Shown here piece by piece: positions 6,988 through 64,000 of a DNA stretch of 64,000 nt. The first letter of the stretch is position 1. Each line of letters opens with the position of its first letter. This DNA is from Rhizobium brockwellii (GTDB taxonomy: Bacteria > Pseudomonadota > Alphaproteobacteria > Rhizobiales > Rhizobiaceae). The notes beneath the pieces were generated by a model. The model had not been told where the DNA came from and made no database searches. It worked only from the letters and a program-made list of their open reading frames with translations. The DNA is taken from NCBI RefSeq assembly GCF_000769405.2, contig NZ_CP053439.1, positions 4,763,001-4,827,000 on the forward strand, written 5' to 3'. A program made the translations under genes and the position numbers.

Positions 6988-8064
6988 ATGACGACGATAT
7001 CGCAATCGGTGCGGAATTTCGAGACCTGGCTGGCCGGTGAACTCGGCGACGATCTCGTCAAGGACGATCTCCGGGAGAAGCACGAGAAGATGCGAAGCGG
7101 CGATTTCGTCTTCCTGCGCGCCACCTATTGGCGCTGGTGCGAGATCATCCTCGATATCTGCCCCGAACTGACAGTCGCCCCTGAGGTGCTGGCGATCGGC
7201 GACACGCATCTGGAGAATTTCGGCACCTGGCGCGATGTCGAGGGCCGGCTCGTCTGGGGTATCAATGATTTCGACGACGCGGCGGTGATGCCCTATGCGT
7301 TGGATCTCGTTCGTATTGCGGCAAGCGCCGTCCTGGCGCGCGGCGACGACGGTCCCTCGGTTCGCATGATCGGCGAATTGATCTTGAGCGGCTATCGCAG
7401 GGGCCTCGAAAATCCATTGCCCGTCATCCTCGAGCGCGACCACAAATGGCTGCGCAAGGCGCTGCTGCTGCCGAATTCCGAACGGCGGGAATTCTGGGAG
7501 AAATACGAAATGTTGCTTCCCGGCAGCAAGCCGCCACCACTAGCCTATGTCAAGGCGCTCGCCGACGCGTTGCCGTCCGGGGCAGGATCCTTCGTGCCGA
7601 AGCCACGCAGCGGCGGCACCGGCAGCCTCGGCCGGCCGCGTTTCGTCGCCTATGCCGAATGGCAGGGTGGGCCGGTGCTACGCGAGGCGAAGGCGCTGCT
7701 GCCGTCCGCCTGGTCGCTTCGCCACAACCCGCAGGACGTGGCGATCCATGCCGAAGAGATCGCCAATGGGCGGGCGCGCTCAGCCGATCCGCACTACCGG
7801 GTCTCCGGCCGCATCCTCGTGCGCCGGCTCTCGCCGAACAGCTGCAAGATCGAAATCGACCGGAATCCGGAGATCCTGCTTTCGCCGACGATGCTGGAAC
7901 TGATGGGCTTCGAGATCGCCAATTGCCATTCCGACGATGCGGCGGCGGTTGCGGCGATCCTGAAGGACTTGGCGGTGCGGGGAAACGACTGGCTGCACGA
8001 GGCGGCAAGGGCCGCGGCATCGAGCGTCAGCGCTGAGCAGAAAGCCTATTCCCGCGCCGGCTAA
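6988..8064 (+). CDS. DUF2252 family protein
   Basis: A 358-residue protein matching DUF2252, a kinase-like-fold family of unknown function. Characteristic stretches are KHEKMRSGDFVFLRATYWRW near residues 30-50, IGDTHLENFGTW near 70-83 (resembling the catalytic-loop HxxN of aminoglycoside phosphotransferases) and WGINDFDDAAVMPYALDL near 90-107 (resembling the metal-binding Asp). These motifs suggest ATP- or metal-dependent phosphotransfer, which is inference. It is a single gene, divergent from the thioesterase/nucleosidase pair across 270 bp in which I see no clear site. Confidence 0.8.
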   Translation: MTTISQSVRNFETWLAGELGDDLVKDDLREKHEKMRSGDFVFLRATYWRWCEIILDICPELTVAPEVLAIGDTHLENFGTWRDVEGRLVWGINDFDDAAVMPYALDLVRIAASAVLARGDDGPSVRMIGELILSGYRRGLENPLPVILERDHKWLRKALLLPNSERREFWEKYEMLLPGSKPPPLAYVKALADALPSGAGSFVPKPRSGGTGSLGRPRFVAYAEWQGGPVLREAKALLPSAWSLRHNPQDVAIHAEEIANGRARSADPHYRVSGRILVRRLSPNSCKIEIDRNPEILLSPTMLELMGFEIANCHSDDAAAVAAILKDLAVRGNDWLHEAARAAASSVSAEQKAYSRAG

Positions 8065-8080
8065 GACTCTGCTTCCGTGA

Positions 8081-9160
8081 TTAGATCCGCACGATGTGCT
8101 GATCCCAGGCGACCTCACTGCGGGTCGACAGGAAATCGCCATCGTAGGAGGAAACGGCAAAGCCGCTTCTTGCCGGGGCGATGCCCGCCGCATCGGGAAC
8201 GACGGTCTCGGCCAGTACCTTGCCGGTCCTTGCGTCGATGGTCACCGAGGCGCCGCCCTTCGGCGAGGTGATGCCGACGAGACCTTCGCTGCGATTGACG
8301 GCGATCGCCCCGACGTAATTGGCGAGCCGGCGCGTCGTCTCCTCCGGCAGGTCGATGAAGGAAAGATCTTCGCCTTTGGCGAAATGGCCGACAAGCGGCG
8401 GCAAATCCTTGCGGTGGCCTTCATACTGGCAGGCGAACCAAATGCGGCCCGCGCCGTCGAGATCGACGTGGCGGGTGGAGAGTTCTGCCCATTCCGCCGG
8501 CAGCACATGTTTTTCGACCAGCGCCCCGGTCGCCGCATCGATCAGCGCCAGCGACGGCTGCATCTCGCCAAGATTGAGCTTGGTGCGGCCGAAATCCGGA
8601 TGCGTCTCGATGCCGCCATTGGCGACGATGAGCAGGCGCCCGTCATCGGACACCGTCATGTCGTGCGGACCGATGCCGTAGGTCTCGAATTCGCCGATGC
8701 GGGTGAAGCGGTCGGTGGCGTCGTAGAGGCCGATCATGCCGCGATTGCCGTCGAAGTCGTTCTCGCTGGCGTAGAGCAAACGACCGTCAGGAGAGAAGGC
8801 GCCGTGGCCGTAGAAATGCCGGTCCTCCCTGGAGCTGATGACGATCGGTTCGCTTTTGTTCCAGGGATCGAAGATCATTGCATAGGTGCCGGGCCGCCGT
8901 GCAAAGGCGACAGTCTTGCCGGTGGCAGCGCTGAAGGCCATGCCGTGGGCGCGGGCGGGAAGCGTTACCTGATCGACGATCTCGCCGCGCTCGGTCACGG
9001 TCGCGACGGCAAAGGAGCCGTCGGCTGCCCGAATGCCCGAGGCATAGACCGCATCGGTCCGCTCCACCGCCATCAGCGACCTTGGCGCCAAGGTTGCAAG
9101 GAAGCCAAGGCCGGCCGCCTTGACGAAGTTGCGTCGGTCGATCGCGGCACTTCGCATCAT
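8081..9160 (-). CDS. DUF1513 protein, Tat-exported beta-propeller
   Basis: A 359-residue protein beginning MMRSAAIDRRNFVKAAGLGF, a twin-arginine signal, followed by repeated short beta-propeller-like segments (HGAFSPDGRLLYASEND, GPHDMTVSDDGRLLIVANGG). DUF1513 proteins are predicted periplasmic and are usually encoded next to imelysins and DUF1111 di-haem proteins, exactly as here. The start is put at 9160, after GGAG, because the longer frame overlaps the upstream gene without need. It is the last gene of the four-gene operon, and its start codon lies only 4 bp beyond the stop of the imelysin-like gene. Confidence 0.85.
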   Translation of the reverse strand: MMRSAAIDRRNFVKAAGLGFLATLAPRSLMAVERTDAVYASGIRAADGSFAVATVTERGEIVDQVTLPARAHGMAFSAATGKTVAFARRPGTYAMIFDPWNKSEPIVISSREDRHFYGHGAFSPDGRLLYASENDFDGNRGMIGLYDATDRFTRIGEFETYGIGPHDMTVSDDGRLLIVANGGIETHPDFGRTKLNLGEMQPSLALIDAATGALVEKHVLPAEWAELSTRHVDLDGAGRIWFACQYEGHRKDLPPLVGHFAKGEDLSFIDLPEETTRRLANYVGAIAVNRSEGLVGITSPKGGASVTIDARTGKVLAETVVPDAAGIAPARSGFAVSSYDGDFLSTRSEVAWDQHIVRI

Positions 9161-9164
9161 CGTC

Positions 9165-10265
9165 TCAGTCTCCGTCCGAAAAGGAAAAGCCGGCCGAAAG
9201 GCCGATCGCCGCGCCATATTCGTCGCTGATCCTGGTGATCAGGTCGCGGCTGTCGGCAAGCAGCGTATCGAGCTTGGCCTTCTCCGCATCGCTTGTGGCG
9301 ACATCGATGTCGGGATTGAGCTTCGGCACGCTGTCGAGCAGCGATTTGAAGTCCTCGTCGATCGAGGCGGCAATCGGCTGCTTGTCCGCTGGCAGAAGCT
9401 CGGCCATGCCGGCCTTCTGCCAGAGCGTGCGCAGGCCCTCCAGATTGGCGGCCATCGATTTCCAGGTATTTTTGGAGCGCCAGTAGATCGCCATGCGCGG
9501 CCGTGGCGCGGTGTCTTTGCCCTTGTAGAACTGCTCCAGCCGCTGGTCGCGGACATTCTCCGCACCATGGACCAGAATGCCGAGCAGCGCCGTCACCGCT
9601 TCCTTGTTGTCCATGAAATCATTGCTCTGCGGGCCTGGGTGTTTCCAGCTCGCCTGCACGCCATCCGGCTTTTCCCAGGCGGCGACGACTTCGCCGGCCT
9701 CACGCTGGATATTACCGGCGACCGCCTCGCCGTAAAGGCAGCGGAAACTGCCCTTCTGCCCGACGAGATCGTCGGAGCCATTGCCATAAAGGACGTATTC
9801 CAGCGCCGTCAGGCCTTGCAACGCAACACTCTTGCCGGCGATCGCATCAACAGTCGCATCCTTCGGGTCGGCCTTGGCGATCAGCGCCTGCACCTGCTTG
9901 AGGCCAACGCCCTTGCGGTCGGGATAAAACAGGATGTGCTCGAAGAGATTGTCCTGAATAACAGGTCCGGTCTGGACGATCTCGATGATCGACCAATAGC
10001 GGATCGTATCGTCGAAGGTGGACTTCGCCTTGTCGAGGGTCTGCTGCGTGCCGTCGGCGCAAAGATCCTTCATCGCCGTCGTCAGCCGGGCGGCCGATTG
10101 CTGCATGTTGCGATAGCCGGGACGGATCACCTCGTCGACGGCGCGCTGCATGACGGCGGGAACGGCATCCTCGTTCAACCCTGCCGGGGGAGTGGCCGTC
10201 TGGGCGGCCGCTGATGTCGCGAGGCCGATCAGAGTGAGGCAGAGCAGGGGGTGCCAAAGGCGCAT
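9165..10265 (-). CDS. Imelysin-family periplasmic protein (second, shorter copy)
   Basis: A 366-residue secreted protein with signal peptide MRLWHPLLCLTLIGLATSAAA and helical imelysin-like sequence (MQRAVDEVIRPGYRNMQQSA). Where the first imelysin of this operon has GYHAIE, this one has GLTALEYVLYG, so the histidine of the GxHxxE motif is replaced by threonine. That suggests a diverged partner rather than a metal-binding duplicate (inference). The ATG at 10265 shares one base with the TGA of the DUF1111 gene (TGATG), a coupled start. Imelysins are iron-regulated envelope proteins whose exact role is unsettled. Confidence 0.85.
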   Translation of the reverse strand: MRLWHPLLCLTLIGLATSAAAQTATPPAGLNEDAVPAVMQRAVDEVIRPGYRNMQQSAARLTTAMKDLCADGTQQTLDKAKSTFDDTIRYWSIIEIVQTGPVIQDNLFEHILFYPDRKGVGLKQVQALIAKADPKDATVDAIAGKSVALQGLTALEYVLYGNGSDDLVGQKGSFRCLYGEAVAGNIQREAGEVVAAWEKPDGVQASWKHPGPQSNDFMDNKEAVTALLGILVHGAENVRDQRLEQFYKGKDTAPRPRMAIYWRSKNTWKSMAANLEGLRTLWQKAGMAELLPADKQPIAASIDEDFKSLLDSVPKLNPDIDVATSDAEKAKLDTLLADSRDLITRISDEYGAAIGLSAGFSFSDGD

Positions 10266-50734: not shown

Positions 50735-50990
50735 GGCGTCCTCCTAGAGGTTCAACTTGGCGGCGACTATAGCCGCCCGGCTGCCGGGCGCGAAGTCTGC
50801 GGGGCAGACAACGCAGTGTTCACAAAAGAACACAGCGTTTCGCCGAATTTGAAGAGGTCAGGCGTCAAGAAATCGTCATGTTTCACTTGCAAACCGGCCG
50901 GGCGTTAAGCTGTTATTAGCGACGACATTCGACAATTCAGTTGCGTTTCAGCATTTCCCGCCGATGCGGCGGGTTCCGGAGCAAAGAGCC

Positions 50991-51803
50991 ATGTGTCGCT
51001 GGGCAGCCTATCGCGGAGACCCCCTCTATCTCGAGGAGTTGGTATCCTCGCCCGCCCATTCCCTGATCGAGCAGTCGCATTGCGCCACCCGCGCCAAGAC
51101 CGCGACGAATGGCGATGGCTTCGGCATTGCCTGGTATGGTGATCGGCCAGAGCCCGGCCGCTACCGCGATATCCTACCCGCCTGGTCGGATTGCAATCTG
51201 AAGAGCCTGGCGCGGCAGATCCGTTCGCCCCTCTTCCTCGCCCATGTCCGCGCTGCCACAGGCGGCGGCACGCGCCGCGACAACTGCCACCCCTTCACCC
51301 ATGGCATCTGGTCCTTCATGCATAACGGCCAGATCTCCGGCTTCGAGCGCCTGCGCCGGCCGATGGAGGCGATGCTCGACGACGAGTTGTTCAATGCCCG
51401 CGGCGGCACGACCGATTCCGAGCTGATGTTCCTGCTGGCGCTGCAGTTCGGTCTGCGCGAGGCGCCGGTCGCTGCGATGGCGGAAATGATCGGCTTCATC
51501 GAGGACCTCGCGGAAAACACCATCGGCTCGGTGCTGCTGCGCTTTACCGCTGCCTTCTCCGACGGCAAGGCGCTTTATGCCATCCGCTATGCGACCGATC
51601 GCAAGGCGCCGACGCTTTATGCCTCGCCGGTCGGCAAGGGCTATTGTCTTGTGTCGGAGCCGCTGAACGACGATGGCGATGCCTGGGCGGAGATCCCGAA
51701 CGGCAGCGCCGTCACGGTCGGCGTGGGAGGAATCGACGTCGCGGATTTTCGACCGGGCAAACGGGCGGCCGTCAAACCGCAGCGCGTCGTCGTTCCAGCC
51801 TGA
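50991..51803 (+). CDS. Class II glutamine amidotransferase (YafJ/EgtC-like)
   Basis: A 270-residue Ntn-hydrolase. The initiator Met is followed by Cys2 (MCRWAAYRGDP), the nucleophile, and further motifs are GDGFGIAWYG, HVRAATGG and HNGQISGF, the class II amidotransferase set. It is a stand-alone glutaminase-like domain; the family includes EgtC of ergothioneine synthesis and YafJ of unknown role. Upstream codons from 50964 are rejected because Cys2 must become N-terminal. It is a single gene, convergent with coaBC. Confidence 0.9.
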   Translation: MCRWAAYRGDPLYLEELVSSPAHSLIEQSHCATRAKTATNGDGFGIAWYGDRPEPGRYRDILPAWSDCNLKSLARQIRSPLFLAHVRAATGGGTRRDNCHPFTHGIWSFMHNGQISGFERLRRPMEAMLDDELFNARGGTTDSELMFLLALQFGLREAPVAAMAEMIGFIEDLAENTIGSVLLRFTAAFSDGKALYAIRYATDRKAPTLYASPVGKGYCLVSEPLNDDGDAWAEIPNGSAVTVGVGGIDVADFRPGKRAAVKPQRVVVPA

Positions 51804-56801: not shown

Positions 56802-58435
<1,634 letters not shown>

Positions 58436-58545: not shown

Positions 58546-58764
58546 TCACTCCTGCCCAGCAGGCTGTTCTTCCACCGCTGTTGCAAAATCGGGATCGACC
58601 GGACCGGCCACGTCGACAAGCCAGTCCCAATCATCGGAAATCGGCTCAAGAATGATCGCACGCCCCTGCCGTCGAATGGCGACGCTGTCGCCGTCGAAAC
58701 GGAATTCCTTGGGCAGCAGGACGGCTTGAGAGCGCCCCGACCAGAAGATCTTCGTTGTTTCCAT
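58546..58764 (-). CDS. VapB/AbrB-type antitoxin, apparently orphan
   Basis: A 72-residue protein starting METTKIFWSGRSQAVLLPKEFRFDGDSVAIRRQGRAIILEP, a typical SpoVT/AbrB-type VapB swapped-hairpin domain, with the C-terminal toxin-binding tail WDWLVDVAGPVDPDFATAVEEQ. It ends in PAGQE, shorter than usual for the group. No vapC frame overlaps or follows; the expected position is filled by a dispersed intergenic repeat. The antitoxin is therefore an orphan and may be only a remnant. The start at 58764 is where homology begins. Confidence 0.8.
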   Translation of the reverse strand: METTKIFWSGRSQAVLLPKEFRFDGDSVAIRRQGRAIILEPISDDWDWLVDVAGPVDPDFATAVEEQPAGQE

Positions 58765-58811
58765 GCCACGGCTCCCGATGAGATGTGACGAGGATATACA
58801 GCAAATTTTGA

Positions 58812-60473
58812 TCAACCAAGCCGGATATAGGGCACGTCCTTCTTCGCCACCTCGTCCAGCGCCTCCTCGTAACCGGCGTCGGCGTAGCGCATGACGCCAA
58901 GCGCCGTATCGTTGGTCAGCGCATGGTCGAGCCGTTCGTCGGCGGCATCCGTGCCGTCGGCGACGACGGTGACACCACAGCTGGTCATGTAGCCGGCATA
59001 GCCGCCGCCGCCGGAATGGACGACGACCAGATCGGCCATCGACGAGCAGAGCATCATCGCATCGATCAGCGGCCAGTCGGCGATCGCATCGGAGCCGTCC
59101 TTCATCCCCTCGGTCATGATATTCGGATGCGCCATGGCGCCGGCGTCGAGATGGTCACGGGAGAAGGCAACCGGACCTTTCAGTTCGCGGCTTGCCACCA
59201 GCGTGTTGACGCGCCTTGCGAGTGCCGTGCGTTCGCCATGGCCGAGCCAGGCGATGCGCGCCGGCAGCCCTTCGAAGGGCACATGCTCGCGCGCCAGCCG
59301 GATCCAGTTGGTGATGATCTTGTTGTCAGGGAACATTTCGAGCAGCAGATCGTCGATCCGGGCGATATCGCTCTCCTCGCCTGACAGAGCCATCCAGCGG
59401 AAGGGGCCGATCGCCCGCGCAAACAGCGGCCGGAGATAGGCTTCGGTGAAGATCGGAATGTCGAAGGCATTGGCGATACCGCCCTCTTTGGCCTGCGTGC
59501 GGATCAGATTGCCGTTGTCGAAGACTTCCGAGCCACGCTTCTGGAATTCCAGCATCGCCGTCACATGGTCGACGATCGAGGCCCGGCTTGCCGCCATCAA
59601 TTGCCCCTGGCCGTCGTCGCGCAGGCCCTTGACCTGCTCGAGGCTCATGCCCTTCGGCACGTAACCGTAGACGAGGTCATGCGCCGAGGTCTGGTCAGTG
59701 ACGATGTCGGGCACGATGCCGCGCCGGGCGATCTCGGGATAGACCTCCGCCGCATTGCCGACGAGGCCGACGGAAAGCGCCCGCTTGTCCTTCACCGCCG
59801 CATCGATCATCTGAAGGGCGGTGTCGAGATCGGGCGCGATTTCCTGGAGGTAACCAATCTGCTGGCGCTTGCGGGCGCGCTCCGGATCGATGTCGATGCA
59901 GAGGATCGCAGCGCCTGCCATGCGGCCGGCGAGTGGCTGCGCCCCGCCCATGCCGCCGAGGCCGGCCGTCAGCACGAACCGGCCGAGGAGATCGCCGCCG
60001 AAGCGCCGCTCGGCAATGCGCATGAAGATCTCGTAGGTACCCTGGATGACGCCCTGGCTGCCGATATATTGCCAGGCGCCGGCCGTCAGCCCGCCCCAGC
60101 AGATCAGTCCCTTGCGCTGCAGCTCGTAGAACACTTCGGCCTTTGCCCATTGCCCGACGATATTGCAGTTCGCCATGATGACCAGCGGCGCCTTGGCATG
60201 CGTTCGAACGAGCCCGATCGGCTTGCCGGACTGGATGAGTAGCGTCTGGTCCTCCTCCATCTCGGTCAGCGCCTTGACGATGCCCCCGTGCGCCGCCCAG
60301 TTGCGGGCCGCCTTGCCGAGAGCAGCATAGACGATCAGATTGTCGGGATCTTCGCCGACGGAGAGCACGTTTTCGAGCAGCCGCAGCAGCGCCTCCTGCC
60401 GCCAGCCCTTGGCCCGCAGTTCCGGCCCGCCCGGAATCGGAAATTTCGGATGACGTGGATTGGCCTTCGGCAT
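58812..60473 (-). CDS. Urocanate hydratase (HutU)-family protein, probably acting on (S-methyl)thiourocanate
   Basis: A 553-residue full-length urocanase-fold protein. The order GGLTAGAWQYIGSQGVIQGTYE, VLTAGLGGMGGAQPLAG (NAD-binding) and RDHLDAGAM is typical. Two places differ from ordinary HutU as I know it. The active-site ARICWxG is ARIAWLG here (residues 405-411, with Ala408 in the cysteine position), and the usual HHGGGVGMGYSQHSG reads HSGGGGYAGYMTSCG (486-500). It therefore probably acts on a urocanate analogue. It shares an operon with a DUF917 protein, a carbamoylase and a hydantoinase-type enzyme, with no hutI or hutH in view. Confidence 0.85.
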   Translation of the reverse strand: MPKANPRHPKFPIPGGPELRAKGWRQEALLRLLENVLSVGEDPDNLIVYAALGKAARNWAAHGGIVKALTEMEEDQTLLIQSGKPIGLVRTHAKAPLVIMANCNIVGQWAKAEVFYELQRKGLICWGGLTAGAWQYIGSQGVIQGTYEIFMRIAERRFGGDLLGRFVLTAGLGGMGGAQPLAGRMAGAAILCIDIDPERARKRQQIGYLQEIAPDLDTALQMIDAAVKDKRALSVGLVGNAAEVYPEIARRGIVPDIVTDQTSAHDLVYGYVPKGMSLEQVKGLRDDGQGQLMAASRASIVDHVTAMLEFQKRGSEVFDNGNLIRTQAKEGGIANAFDIPIFTEAYLRPLFARAIGPFRWMALSGEESDIARIDDLLLEMFPDNKIITNWIRLAREHVPFEGLPARIAWLGHGERTALARRVNTLVASRELKGPVAFSRDHLDAGAMAHPNIMTEGMKDGSDAIADWPLIDAMMLCSSMADLVVVHSGGGGYAGYMTSCGVTVVADGTDAADERLDHALTNDTALGVMRYADAGYEEALDEVAKKDVPYIRLG

Positions 60474-60502
60474 CGTGGGTTCCTCGTTTTGCTCTCTGCT
60501 TT

Positions 60503-60527
60503 CCCTTCTCCCCGCTGGGGAGAAGGG
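60503..60527. repeat. Perfect 11-bp palindromic unit inside the operon
   Basis: CCCTTCTCCCC (60503-60513) and GGGGAGAAGGG (60517-60527) pair perfectly around GCT, in the 70-base gap between the TfoX-like gene and the urocanase gene. It resembles a common intergenic palindrome of rhizobia and relatives. No T-tract follows, so it is more likely an RNA-stability element than a terminator. Confidence 0.7.
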
Positions 60528-60543
60528 GGAATGGCATCGTTCG

Positions 60544-60873
60544 TTATTTGCTGGGCAGCGATTCCACATAGGCGAGCGCCGCATCGAGCAAACGTCGTCT
60601 CAGGGCATCGTCGCCGTAAACCTCGGCACCACCTCGCACCCAGCCATGCATCACCCGCTCGCCCGACAGCATCTGGATCACGCCCGGCAGTGCCAGCGCC
60701 CAGCCGTCATTGCCCTTGCCGAGACGGATCAGCATGCCGTCATGGCGCGCGCAGCAGAGAAGATTGCCGTTCAGCATGAAGGCCCAGCCGCCGAACATGG
60801 ATTTTTCGGCAAGGCCCGGCCGATCGCCGAGTTCCTCACGCATCAGTTCTTCGAGACCGGGATCGCGCGCCAT
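60544..60873 (-). CDS. TfoX/Sxy N-terminal domain protein
   Basis: A 109-residue single-domain TfoX_N protein: DRPGLAEKSMFGGWAFMLNGNLLCCARHDGMLIRLGK is the family core, followed by GVIQMLSGERVMHGWVRGGAE. It lacks the C-terminal domain of the competence regulator Sxy, so that role should not be assumed. It sits between the DUF917 gene (3 bp away) and the urocanase gene in the same orientation; why it is in the operon is unknown. Confidence 0.88.
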   Translation of the reverse strand: MARDPGLEELMREELGDRPGLAEKSMFGGWAFMLNGNLLCCARHDGMLIRLGKGNDGWALALPGVIQMLSGERVMHGWVRGGAEVYGDDALRRRLLDAALAYVESLPSK

Positions 60874-60876
60874 GGT

Positions 60877-61974
60877 TCAGGCCTTCGTCGCCAGTGCATA
60901 GCGTGCGATCTCGATCCCCATCGCCTTTTCGACGACGGGATAGACGGTCGGATCGAGCACGCTTGCCGACAGCGGAATGATATCCATCGGCACATGCAGG
61001 ATGAAGACATGCATGCCCTCCTTGAGCTGGCCGACGCTGAGCGGCTCACCCTCCGGTGAAAGCGTGGTGATGACGGCGGGAAAGGTCGCTAGCCGCCCGC
61101 CATCCGCGTCGTCCACCGCCATATATTCGTTCATCACATGCAGCGTCACCGATGTTCCGCCCGAGCCGACGGTGATCGTGCCGATGTCGAAGGCTTCCTT
61201 GGTGTAGACGACGTCCTTGCGGGTAATGATGCCCTCGGCAAGGATATGTCCGCCCGTCGTCTTGCAGATCGCGTCGATGACAGCAGATCCGCCGCGCTTC
61301 TCCGCCGCGATGATTGCCTCGCCGAGCGCAAGCGCCATCGAGATGCCGCCGAGTGCTGCATGGCTGCGGACATAGGAGGCTCGGAGCGGATTGCGGCAAC
61401 TGGCGATGAAGCCGCCGGATTGATCGGCGGCAGCCCGCAGCACCGGTGAGATCTTCGCCGTCGCCCCCTTCACCACCAGTTCGATATAACGATTCTCGGA
61501 GCGATTGCCGCCGACGGCGGTCTGGATCATCTGCTCGGGCGATCCGGCCATGCCGATCGAGCCCATGTCGCCTGTGGGATGCGCGCGGATATCGCCGACC
61601 GCGTCGACCACCTTGGTGCCGAGGATCGCCGAGGGCAGCCAGCCGTTCAGCGTTGAGGATTTGCCGTTCTGGCCGATGATCAGCCCGGAAAGCTTTTCGC
61701 CCAGCGCCTCCTGCAACAGTTGCACTGATTTCACATAGTCGATGCCCTGCATTTCCCAGGGGGTGGTGGAGGCCGGCGCGCCGATCGCGGCCGCAGTCGC
61801 AATCCAATCCTCGTCCTTCAGCTCGTCGATCGAGACCAGCTCGGGCTTGCCGACATTGACGGCGGCTAGCCCAAGCATCCGTCCGTGATCGGCCCAGCCG
61901 CCGCCGCCGGCGGCATAGACGGAGCCGCCCCTGACGGCAGCTTCCACGTCCTTCTCAACGAGTATGCGTCCCAT
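60877..61974 (-). CDS. DUF917 / S-methyl thiohydantoin desulfurase family protein
   Basis: A 365-residue DUF917 protein: N-terminal DVEAAVRGGSVYAAGGGGWADHGRMLGLAA, then TPWEMQGIDYVKSVQLLQEA, GRDLxx-like IGQNGKSSTLNGWLPSAI, and a C-terminal domain with GGTSVTLHVMNEYMAVDDADG. The family is described as desulfurases acting on the S-methyl-thiohydantoin made from S-methyl thiourocanate, giving the hydantoin. That role fits the neighbouring genes. The ATG has AGGAGAAGGCG upstream and overlaps the M20 gene by 20 bp. Confidence 0.85.
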   Translation of the reverse strand: MGRILVEKDVEAAVRGGSVYAAGGGGWADHGRMLGLAAVNVGKPELVSIDELKDEDWIATAAAIGAPASTTPWEMQGIDYVKSVQLLQEALGEKLSGLIIGQNGKSSTLNGWLPSAILGTKVVDAVGDIRAHPTGDMGSIGMAGSPEQMIQTAVGGNRSENRYIELVVKGATAKISPVLRAAADQSGGFIASCRNPLRASYVRSHAALGGISMALALGEAIIAAEKRGGSAVIDAICKTTGGHILAEGIITRKDVVYTKEAFDIGTITVGSGGTSVTLHVMNEYMAVDDADGGRLATFPAVITTLSPEGEPLSVGQLKEGMHVFILHVPMDIIPLSASVLDPTVYPVVEKAMGIEIARYALATKA

Positions 61975-63235
61975 TCGCCTTCTCCTGATTCAAGCTCTTG
62001 TCCATTTCGCGCACCGCTTCGAAAAGAACGGCGGCGCCGAGCGCGATATCGTCGTTCTCAGCCCACTCGTCGGCCGAATGGCTGCGGCCTTCCCGGCAGG
62101 GCACGAAAATCATCGCCGCCGGCGCCATCTTGGCGATCCAGGCCGTGTCGTGCCCGGCGCCGGAGGCCATGCGCCGGTGTTTCGCGCCGACCCGCTCGCA
62201 GGCAGCCTCCAAGGTCGACAGCAGCCCGGCATCAGCAGGCGTCGGCTGATTGTCGGAAACCCGGTTCGGCGTCTTGATCGTCACGCCATAGGCCCCCGCC
62301 AGCTTTTCGACATGGCCGTCGAGCCAGCGGCAGAATGCCTCCATGTCGGCACGGATTTCGGCACGGCCATCGATCAGCAGCACCACCTTCGACGGCACGA
62401 CATTGGCGGCATTCGGCTCGATCCTGAATTCGCCGACCGTCGCTGCAAAATGGCCCGGCGTTTTGGCAAGTTCGGCGGCGGCGTTGCGGATGTCGAGCAC
62501 CAGCTGCGATGCCGCCACCAACGCATCCGCCCGCCGGTCCATCGGCGTCGTGCCGGCATGGTCGGCCCGCCCTTCGACGGTGATCTCGATCCGGGTGATG
62601 CCCGAGATTGCGGTGACGACGCCGATATCCTCCTTTTCGGCTTCGAGCACCGGCCCTTGTTCGATATGAAGCTCCAGAAAGCCTGCTATATCGGGCCTGT
62701 TCTGCCGCATCAGCACATCGGGTCGGCCACCAATCTGCGCGATGCCCTCGGCCAGGTCGCGCCCGTCGCTGACGCGCGAAAGCCAGGCCGCCGGCAGTTG
62801 GCCGGTCATGCCGCGGCTGCCGATGCAGGACACGCCGAAGATGCTCACCTCCTCGGCAAGGAAATCGACGATTTCGAGATCGTGATCGAGTTCGATATCC
62901 TGATCGCGTAGCGCGCGCGCCACCTCCAGCGCCGCGATTACCCCGGCAATGCCGTCGAAGCGGCCGCCGTCCGGCACCGTGTCGGAATGCGAGCCGACCA
63001 TGATCGTGCCGAGCCAAGGCTTCCGGCCTGTCCGCCGGCCGACCAGATTGCCGGCGGCATCGATCCGCGTTTCCAGTCCCGCCGCCTTCATCCGCGCTTC
63101 GATATAGGCCCGGCCCTCGAGAAATAGCGGCGAGAAGGCTCGCCGCGTCCAGGGATGCCCCGGCTCGGTAATCCCGGCCAGCGCCTCGATATCTCCAGCG
63201 ATCCGGCCGGCATTGACGGGAAGATTGCGGCTCAT
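61955..63235 (-). CDS. Zn-dependent M20 hydrolase (N-carbamoyl-L-amino-acid hydrolase / allantoate amidohydrolase family)
   Basis: A 426-residue M20-type amidohydrolase. Metal ligands are visible in GSHSDTVPDGGRFDG (His, Asp), LAEEVSIFGVSCIGSR (Glu), ELHIEQGPVLEAE (His, Glu) and a C-terminal SGAGHDTAWIAKMAPAAMIF. DHAGTTPMDRRADALVAAS is the dimerisation/substrate loop. The family removes carbamoyl groups; here N-carbamoyl-glutamate is the suggested substrate. It overlaps both neighbours by a few bases. Confidence 0.9.
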   Translation of the reverse strand: MSRNLPVNAGRIAGDIEALAGITEPGHPWTRRAFSPLFLEGRAYIEARMKAAGLETRIDAAGNLVGRRTGRKPWLGTIMVGSHSDTVPDGGRFDGIAGVIAALEVARALRDQDIELDHDLEIVDFLAEEVSIFGVSCIGSRGMTGQLPAAWLSRVSDGRDLAEGIAQIGGRPDVLMRQNRPDIAGFLELHIEQGPVLEAEKEDIGVVTAISGITRIEITVEGRADHAGTTPMDRRADALVAASQLVLDIRNAAAELAKTPGHFAATVGEFRIEPNAANVVPSKVVLLIDGRAEIRADMEAFCRWLDGHVEKLAGAYGVTIKTPNRVSDNQPTPADAGLLSTLEAACERVGAKHRRMASGAGHDTAWIAKMAPAAMIFVPCREGRSHSADEWAENDDIALGAAVLFEAVREMDKSLNQEKANGTHTR

Positions 63236-64000
63236 GCTTCAGCTCCCGCAATGACCTGGCGCGGCAGCGGCCGCACGAACCGGCCGGTGCCGGGCTCGGC
63301 CAGCACCTTCGCGCCCTCGGCGATCTTTTCACCGCGCAGATAGGTGGCCGAGACGGTCCAGGGCAGGCGGATGCCATTATAGGGGCTCCAGCCGATGACG
63401 TTGTTGCCGCTTGCCGATGCATCATAGACGCTGTCGCGCGGCTCGAGCACGACGATATCGGCATCCTTGCCCGGGGTCAGCGCCCCCTTGATATGGTCGA
63501 GTCGGAAATGCTTCGCCGGGTTCTCCGCCATCAGCCTGGCTGCCCAGGTCAGCGGAATGCCGCGTTCGATGGCACCTTTGACGAAAAGCGGCACCATCAC
63601 TTCGAGACCGGGAACGCCGGAGGCGTTGGCGAGCATGTCGGGATTGGTCTTGCGGTTTTCCGACCAGCTGACGTGATCGGTCGAGACCAGCCAGACATCG
63701 CCCTCCGCCACCTTCCGCCAGAGCCTCTCCACCTCGGCGCGCGGCCGCACCGGCGGATTGATCTTCGCCTTGCCGCCGAGCCGCTTCACGTCGTTTTCCT
63801 CGTCGAGCGTCAGGTAGTGGATGCAGCATTCCACCGTCGCCGCAAAGCCATCGCGGCGATAGGCGCGCGCGATATCGTAGCCGCGCCCGAGCGAGCAGTG
63901 CACTACATGCGCCGGGCAACCGGTATGAGCACCGGTCTCGAAGATCGTGTGCATCGCCAGCAGTTCGGTGATCGGCGGCCGCGACAGGCCGTGCGCCCGC
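63232..64000 (-). CDS. Dihydroorotase/hydantoinase-type cyclic amidohydrolase (5' end beyond window)
   Basis: The C-terminal 255 or so residues of a longer amidohydrolase, open to the window edge. Seen are RAHGLSRPPITELLAMHTIF, PAHVVHCS (metal-binding His), CCIHYLTLDEEND, VSTDHVSWSENRK (Asp/His) and the end FRLDHIKGALTPGKDADIVVLEP, typical of hydantoinase, allantoinase and dihydroorotase-like enzymes. It would open a hydantoin ring to the N-carbamoyl amino acid. Its stop overlaps the M20 start (ATGA). The remaining part and probably more of the operon lie beyond 64000. Confidence 0.88.
   Translation of the reverse strand, partial: RAHGLSRPPITELLAMHTIFETGAHTGCPAHVVHCSLGRGYDIARAYRRDGFAATVECCIHYLTLDEENDVKRLGGKAKINPPVRPRAEVERLWRKVAEGDVWLVSTDHVSWSENRKTNPDMLANASGVPGLEVMVPLFVKGAIERGIPLTWAARLMAENPAKHFRLDHIKGALTPGKDADIVVLEPRDSVYDASASGNNVIGWSPYNGIRLPWTVSATYLRGEKIAEGAKVLAEPGTGRFVRPLPRQVIAGAEA

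Follow-up and report, generated by a model that had tools for sequence, protein, structure and literature searches.

Fungi and actinobacteria make ergothioneine, a widely studied antioxidant; to our knowledge, little is known of the organisms that consume it in soil. A five-step bacterial pathway for its catabolism was reportedly described by Beliaeva, Leisinger and Seebeck in 2021, and a separate pathway for oxidised ergothioneine has reportedly been found in Agrobacterium. The window analysed here, a stretch of 64,000 nucleotides of Rhizobium brockwellii (G000:C1:4763001-4827000; genome 7.1 Mb), ends inside a six-gene minus-strand operon, five genes of which lie in the window and the sixth, ertA, beyond position 64,000. 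We estimate a probability of about 0.8 that this ert operon carries out a five-step catabolism of ergothioneine to glutamate, with a distant LysR protein regulating both promoters and the importer in Rhizobium. A 2026 article describes ergothionase as restricted to few genera, with divergent homologues possibly missed (PMC13405746), and another presents EgtU as the ergothioneine importer of Streptococcus pneumoniae (PMC9732360).

The operon, read from upstream, is composed of ertA, ertD, ertE, a thiohydantoin desulfurase gene (DUF917), a TfoX_N gene and a thiourocanate hydratase gene. An initial annotation of the window had read five same-strand genes as a route from thiourocanate or its S-methyl form to glutamate and had proposed looking past 64,000 for an ergothionase-type gene. 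We confirmed all five on the minus strand, with Pfam and NCBIfam bearing out their families, and the lyase gene proved to be the very next one upstream: ertA, encoding 523 amino acids on the same strand at L003:7758-9329 (stretch L003 is C1:4820000-4835120; adding 56999 to an L003 position gives its window coordinate). Four NCBIfam equivalog models exceed their cut-offs downstream of it, in line with the thiourocanate-to-glutamate part of that proposal, and both S-methyl models stay below theirs, which leaves the S-methyl variant unsupported.

ErtD, the predicted hydantoin-5-propionate amidohydrolase (63232-64000, minus strand, continuing past the window; full gene L003:6233-7612, 459 amino acids), scores 780 bits as a full-length protein against a cut-off of 600 for NF058538. 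ErtE, a predicted N-carbamyl-L-glutamate amidohydrolase of the M20 type (61955-63235, minus strand), reaches 637 bits on NF058540 (cut-off 520) and scores higher, 846 (cut-off 486), on the generic Zn-dependent hydrolase model NF009531. The DUF917 protein (60877-61974, minus strand) belongs to the S-Me-THD superfamily and falls in its non-methylated subfamily, with 599 bits on the thiohydantoin desulfurase model NF058529 (cut-off 440) against 281 on the S-methyl model NF058532 (cut-off 450). Two more distant DUF917-family genes stand in tandem at G000:C2:75953-78002, far under the desulfurase cut-off, and such tandem pairs recur across family genomes. The urocanase homologue (58812-60473, minus strand) attains 1053 bits on the thiourocanate hydratase model NF058530 (cut-off 930) and fails the S-methyl thiourocanate model NF058531 (733, cut-off 880). 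The HutU model is satisfied too (691 against a threshold of 375), as expected of a urocanase homologue, although NF058530 gives by far the higher score. Among solved structures the hydratase is closest to 7ned, at 815 bits versus 559 for 8q9u, which we take to be the S-methyl enzyme, and 42 alignment positions are fixed differently between 24 sequences of the thiourocanate hydratase type and 3 HutU sequences.

The best solved relative of ErtA is the Treponema denticola ergothionase 6s7j (E 1e-48). The 17 ErtA-type proteins from the examined loci all have a replacement for the Ala-Ser-Gly triad of HutH that forms 4-methylideneimidazole-5-one (MIO), namely Cys-Ala/Gly in 16 rows and Glu-Ala, one residue shorter, in the diverged row of locus L039; ErtA is hence a member of the aromatic-lyase family devoid of the MIO triad, the mark of an ergothionase. 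K381, aligned with a lysine of the T. denticola ergothionase, is kept in 17/17 ErtA proteins and absent from the genome's own HutH, and in a 10-row alignment K381 and E409, presumably active-site residues, are invariant. Databases call the Rhizobium proteins "histidine ammonia-lyase" or "aromatic amino acid lyase". From fold, motif and context we infer that ErtA would release trimethylamine from ergothioneine. The diverged lyase of L039 (L039:3586-5268) has an N-terminus resembling a signal peptide and is 36% identical to the T. denticola ergothionase and 29% to our ErtA; it is possibly a periplasmic ergothionase.

Gene content and order are conserved well beyond this genome. In a family sample of 297 genomes, the desulfurase exceeds its cut-off in 40 and ErtA occurs in 31 (counted at E ≤ 1e-80, a threshold that misses the L039 lyase), all 31 falling within the 40; in a phylum sample of 398 genomes, which overlaps the first, six carry a desulfurase over the cut-off. 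Across 21 wider loci, comprising our own and those of 20 of the 40 desulfurase genomes picked to span genera, the desulfurase and hydratase genes are always adjacent or split by TfoX_N only, accompanied by ErtE (20/21), ErtD (20/21), ErtA (17/21) and TfoX_N (7/21). The full operon recurs in 76 of 80 named loci, the best 80 of 256 stretches encoding an ErtA relative in named genomes (the stretch L092 is incomplete), and our ErtA is 99-100% identical to the lyases of several Rhizobium leguminosarum-complex strains. Because gene order holds in the 21 loci and in 76 of the 80, the operon is not a chance arrangement. Three operons without a nearby ErtA (L040, L042, L047) carry genes of a tripartite ATP-independent periplasmic (TRAP) transporter cluster downstream, three genes in L040 and L042 and the first only in L047, with DctP and DctM confirmed in L040; these organisms may import thiourocanate instead of ergothioneine.

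On these grounds, namely gene content, order, families at curated cut-offs, loss of the MIO triad and co-occurrence, we read the operon as a complete route, the chemistry of its enzymes being predicted at family level. Ergothioneine would be imported by an OsmF-type system, and ErtA, a lyase fold without the MIO triad, would convert it to thiourocanate and trimethylamine. The urocanase homologue would hydrate thiourocanate to thiohydantoin-5-propionate, from which the DUF917 enzyme would strip sulfur to give hydantoin-5-propionate; ErtD would then open the ring to form N-carbamyl-glutamate, and ErtE would yield glutamate, with sulfide and ammonia as by-products of the route. A LysR protein with tandem helix-turn-helix (HTH) domains would sense ergothioneine or thiourocanate and act at the ertA and importer promoters via TGTTC-N9-GATATCCC.

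In 12 of the 20 other-genome loci, a LysR gene and the first ert gene (ertA or ertD) are transcribed divergently, the LysR belonging each time to one family; that of L043 has two HTH_1 domains in tandem. Our operon has no adjacent LysR of this family. Among 127 candidates scored against the L043 protein, the genome yields just one relative at E ≤ 1e-10, C1:130612-131646, which is 36% identical, likewise has the tandem HTH and is divergent from a four-gene ATP-binding cassette (ABC) transporter. This LysR adjoins the importer in 3/3 Rhizobium loci and 0/15 other-genus loci (18 examined), and an OsmF-type ABC transporter lies inside the ert cluster itself in two of the 20 other loci (L041 and L055, of two other genera). 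In a tree of the binding proteins, the Rhizobium copy occupies its own long branch (0.52, support 100/100). The initial annotation had listed a betaine transporter among the genes to look for past 64,000; none lies within the operon, and a likely OsmF-type importer is found with its putative regulator at this distant locus.

Alignment of 18 ertA upstream regions revealed a conserved block whose ends recur, at the same spacing, in the gap between LysR and importer. The resulting bipartite site, TGTTC-N9-GATATCCC, is matched perfectly at two places only in the genome (reversed control, 0), one at C1:4829484-4829505 (L003:9485-9506), 156-177 bp before ertA, and one at C1:130540-130561 in the LysR-importer gap; the same candidate operator stands at both promoters and nowhere else, the seven one-mismatch sites being background. 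By simple arithmetic on 13 specified bases, about 0.2 perfect sites per genome are expected by chance. Both sites fall close to the ends of the 4,835,120-base contig C1, one at either end and ~136 kb apart if it is circular, and R. johnstonii 3841 (G685) has both, 149 kb apart. The 80 named ertA upstream regions contain a perfect site in 74 cases, one mismatch in four and two mismatches in two. Among the 21 wider loci, L055 was left out of the ertA motif test, its fetched stretch beginning inside ertA.

The search was extended to 30 genome handles, 27 of Rhizobium (one genome counted twice, G029 = G691) and three of other genera. Exactly two perfect sites occur in 23 of the Rhizobium handles, three in 3 and one in 1, and the other genera have one, one and zero, with a single reversed-control match over all 30. 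Thirty of the 58 sites were fetched: 17 lie at ertA, 11 in the LysR-importer gap, one in a LysR-ertD gap (G237) and one beside an unrelated gene (G178). The last, on another contig (L173) next to a multicopper-oxidase gene read as nitrite reductase, is taken as chance. In a genus sample of 148 genomes, which overlaps the 30 and was scored for the number of sites and not their places, 106 have exactly two (reversed control, 4 matches in all). When the LysR-importer gap is compared across 10 loci, no 22-bp window is more invariant than the site, which shares first place with the window one base over (19/22 positions invariant versus 116/498 elsewhere). The core TGGGATAT is found no more than 200 bp upstream of the first ert gene in 13/13 LysR-adjacent loci not of the Rhizobium type (the 12 and L137) and in 0/4 testable non-Rhizobium loci without this LysR (L039, L040, L042, L047), of which L040, L042 and L047 lack a neighbouring ErtA as well. 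Within Rhizobium, the distant tandem-HTH LysR most likely switches the ert operon and the divergent importer together through predicted DNA binding. We lean towards viewing the LysR, the OsmF-annotated importer and the distant ert operon as a dedicated two-promoter ergothioneine regulon whose importer was recruited from a betaine system.

Three other substrates were considered. Degradation of S-methyl-ergothioneine or S-methyl-thiourocanate, with release of methanethiol in place of turnover of the free thione, is suggested by the Pfam superfamily of the DUF917 protein, named for S-methyl thiohydantoin desulfurase; we consider it improbable given that both S-methyl models fall below cut-off and both non-methyl models pass, that the hydratase is nearer 7ned than 8q9u, and that the six operon genes include no methyltransferase family. 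A comparably small chance attaches to oxidised ergothioneine, such as the sulfonate, as the substrate of a pathway like that of Agrobacterium, which reportedly also starts with a trimethylamine lyase of the same fold; all four downstream families exceed the cut-offs of models for the thiourocanate/thiohydantoin route, and no reductase family is found among the six genes. Slighter still is the prospect of a second hut-like operon acting on histidine and urocanate. Its urocanase and histidine ammonia-lyase (HAL) folds are present and the hydratase clears the HutU cut-off, yet ErtA has no MIO triad, the 42 positions separate the hydratase type from HutU, hut has no use for desulfurase or hydantoinase genes, and the genome already holds a hut operon elsewhere, on contig C3 (hutU, hutG, hutH, hutI and hutC by NCBIfam, hutF by Pfam). 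We rejected the S-methyl route and the hut duplication on the model cut-offs, the separate C3 operon and the loss of the MIO triad.

The hut genes bear on two further points of the initial annotation, which had noted no hutH, hutI or hutF in the window and had named a complete hut operon just past the window as decisive against it: hutI, hutG, hutH and hutF are located on C3, and the gene that follows ertA beyond the window is ubiB. The ert operon itself does not combine an MIO-bearing HutH and a HutU equivalog with linked hutI/hutG or hutF. Own-genome searches at E ≤ 0.001 returned two urocanase relatives, the operon's hydratase (C1:4821815) and C3:96329, and four HAL-fold relatives, C1:4827760, C3:98895, C1:4154236 and C3:108238; they gave no further relative of either fold in the window.

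The strongest competitor concerns uptake and control. The distant LysR and OsmF-type transporter could serve general betaine or osmoprotectant uptake, the regulator sensing a common betaine and ergothioneine entering otherwise, for instance through a major facilitator superfamily (MFS) protein. NCBIfam names the binding protein OsmF, importer relatives are common in genomes without ErtA, and in 49 of the 80 named loci the operon has an MFS gene close by. Set against this are the long branch of the Rhizobium binding protein, the pairing of LysR and importer in Rhizobium alone among the 18 loci, the same LysR family next to ert genes at 12 of the 20 loci from other genomes, and the observation of an MFS gene near ert genes only in Rhizobium-type loci. 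We regard general betaine uptake as possible but doubtful, and an OsmF-type importer that would bring in ergothioneine as the better account, its substrate being among the weakest links of the interpretation.

Several observations weigh against the interpretation as a whole. ErtA is ~27% identical to the T. denticola ergothionase, and NCBIfam offers it only HutH-type and related lyase names, all below cut-off. In L136, L138 and L139, ErtA stands without the rest of the operon: it lies at 8001-9539, at the ubiB position, with no desulfurase or hydratase genes nearby, the upstream motif being still recognisable with one or two mismatches. The nearby MFS gene of the 49 named loci could be the transporter instead. 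The positions of the motif were chosen after comparing both of our own sites, and 20 of 2000 gap shuffles reach the observed 17/24 identity, so that the own-genome match alone is weak and the further support comes from conservation of the site; in the genus sample, 14 genomes have no site, 10 have one and 18 have three or more. Identity between our LysR and the ert-linked ones is only 31-36%. The importer's binding protein scores 488 on the OsmF glycine-betaine model, above its cut-off of 400, and the 15 other-genus importer loci have neither a LysR nor a site with fewer than two mismatches. At 1e-80 the importer finds a match in only 19 of the 31 family genomes that have ErtA, and also in 68 of the 266 that lack it; on these counts we dropped the idea that simple co-occurrence marks the importer as specific to ErtA genomes. 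In the tree, the ert-linked L055 copy groups with Rhizobium, yet so do two ErtA-negative copies, and the ert-linked L041 copy falls outside the nearest group of Rhizobium.

The TfoX_N gene (60544-60873, minus strand; 109 amino acids) is an optional passenger of the operon. Its product matches PF04993 at 33.4 bits (cut-off 30.1) and no solved structure matching it by sequence was found. It is present in 68 of the 76 full operons of the named loci and 7 of the 21 wider loci; its absence from 8/76 and 14/21 led us to discard it as an essential pathway enzyme. Given purifying selection (ratio of nonsynonymous to synonymous substitution rates, dN/dS, 0.06-0.36 over 13 pairs, some with saturated dS) and a confidently predicted fold (predicted local distance difference test, pLDDT, 93.8), TfoX_N is a functional accessory gene. 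Its role is another of the weakest links.

Within the operon, ErtD and ErtE overlap by 4 bp and ErtE and DUF917 by 20 bp, and 3 bp separate DUF917 from TfoX_N. The hydratase gene lies 70 bp beyond TfoX_N once its start is corrected. That start is most likely 60473 rather than 60584, since NCBIfam alignments to the longer open reading frame (ORF) start only at residues 51-55, a GAGGA ribosome-binding site accompanies the ATG at 60473, and relatives align across all 553 amino acids from that ATG. The spacer (60474-60543, minus strand), read directly in the sequence, holds the inverted repeat TTCTCCCC-AGC-GGGGAGAA and the ribosome-binding site of the hydratase.

Directly behind the hydratase is a VapB/MazE-type antitoxin gene (58546-58767, minus strand), present in 17 of the 80 named ert loci; none of the listed ORFs beside it is a VapC gene, and no search aimed at VapC was made. 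An MFS transporter gene (56802-58052, plus strand) lies near the operon and convergent with it; this gene and a glyoxalase-fold gene (together 56802-58435, plus strand) overlap each other. Such an opposite-strand MFS gene is found within the fetched stretch in 49/80 named loci and 4/21 wider loci, the latter being the four of genus Rhizobium, and it also lies near ErtA in L136, L138 and L139, where the rest of the operon is absent.

The initial annotation had also noted an EgtC-like amidotransferase near 50991. This class II amidotransferase gene (50964-51803, plus strand), adjoining coaBC, reaches 174 bits where the EgtC model requires 219 and was rejected as an EgtC equivalog; the accompanying remark that it is not linked to ergothioneine here stands. 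EgtD has no match in the genome, and 14 control genomes also gave none over cut-off, so this search has no positive control. On the failed EgtC cut-off and the missing EgtD match, the organism should consume ergothioneine but not make it, as far as gene content predicts.

A lyase without the MIO triad occurs together with the downstream pathway in 31 of the 297 family genomes and, separately, in many named Rhizobium species, where database names hide ErtA. If the interpretation is true, legume symbionts feed on a compound from soil fungi and actinobacteria, and the two-site operator offers a direct handle on all three of regulator, importer and substrate in a nitrogen-fixing symbiont amenable to genetics. 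Among titles and abstract openings, with most subscription journals outside the search, we found nothing that deals with how Rhizobium degrades ergothioneine, with a LysR protein regulating this catabolism or with the split regulon.

Compared with the five-step bacterial pathway, the locus shares the four NCBIfam-named downstream steps over cut-off and an ergothionase-type first gene in one operon; it differs in the added TfoX_N, in a lyase of a diverged subgroup and in a proposed regulator and importer at a separate locus. ErtA resembles the T. denticola ergothionase (6s7j) in its aromatic-lyase fold, the absent MIO triad and the kept K381 and E409 positions, whereas the two are only ~27% identical. 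The Rhizobium binding protein belongs, like EgtU, to the betaine-type ABC binding protein family and matches 7txl (E 6e-30), but is far closer to OsmF proteins (4wep, E 4e-105). The hut operon offers a homologous lyase and hydratase with parallel chemistry, unlike ert in having no desulfurase and hydantoinase steps, and is encoded separately in the same genome. The pathway and its enzyme families are already known and the operon is a new member; what is new is the proposed control.

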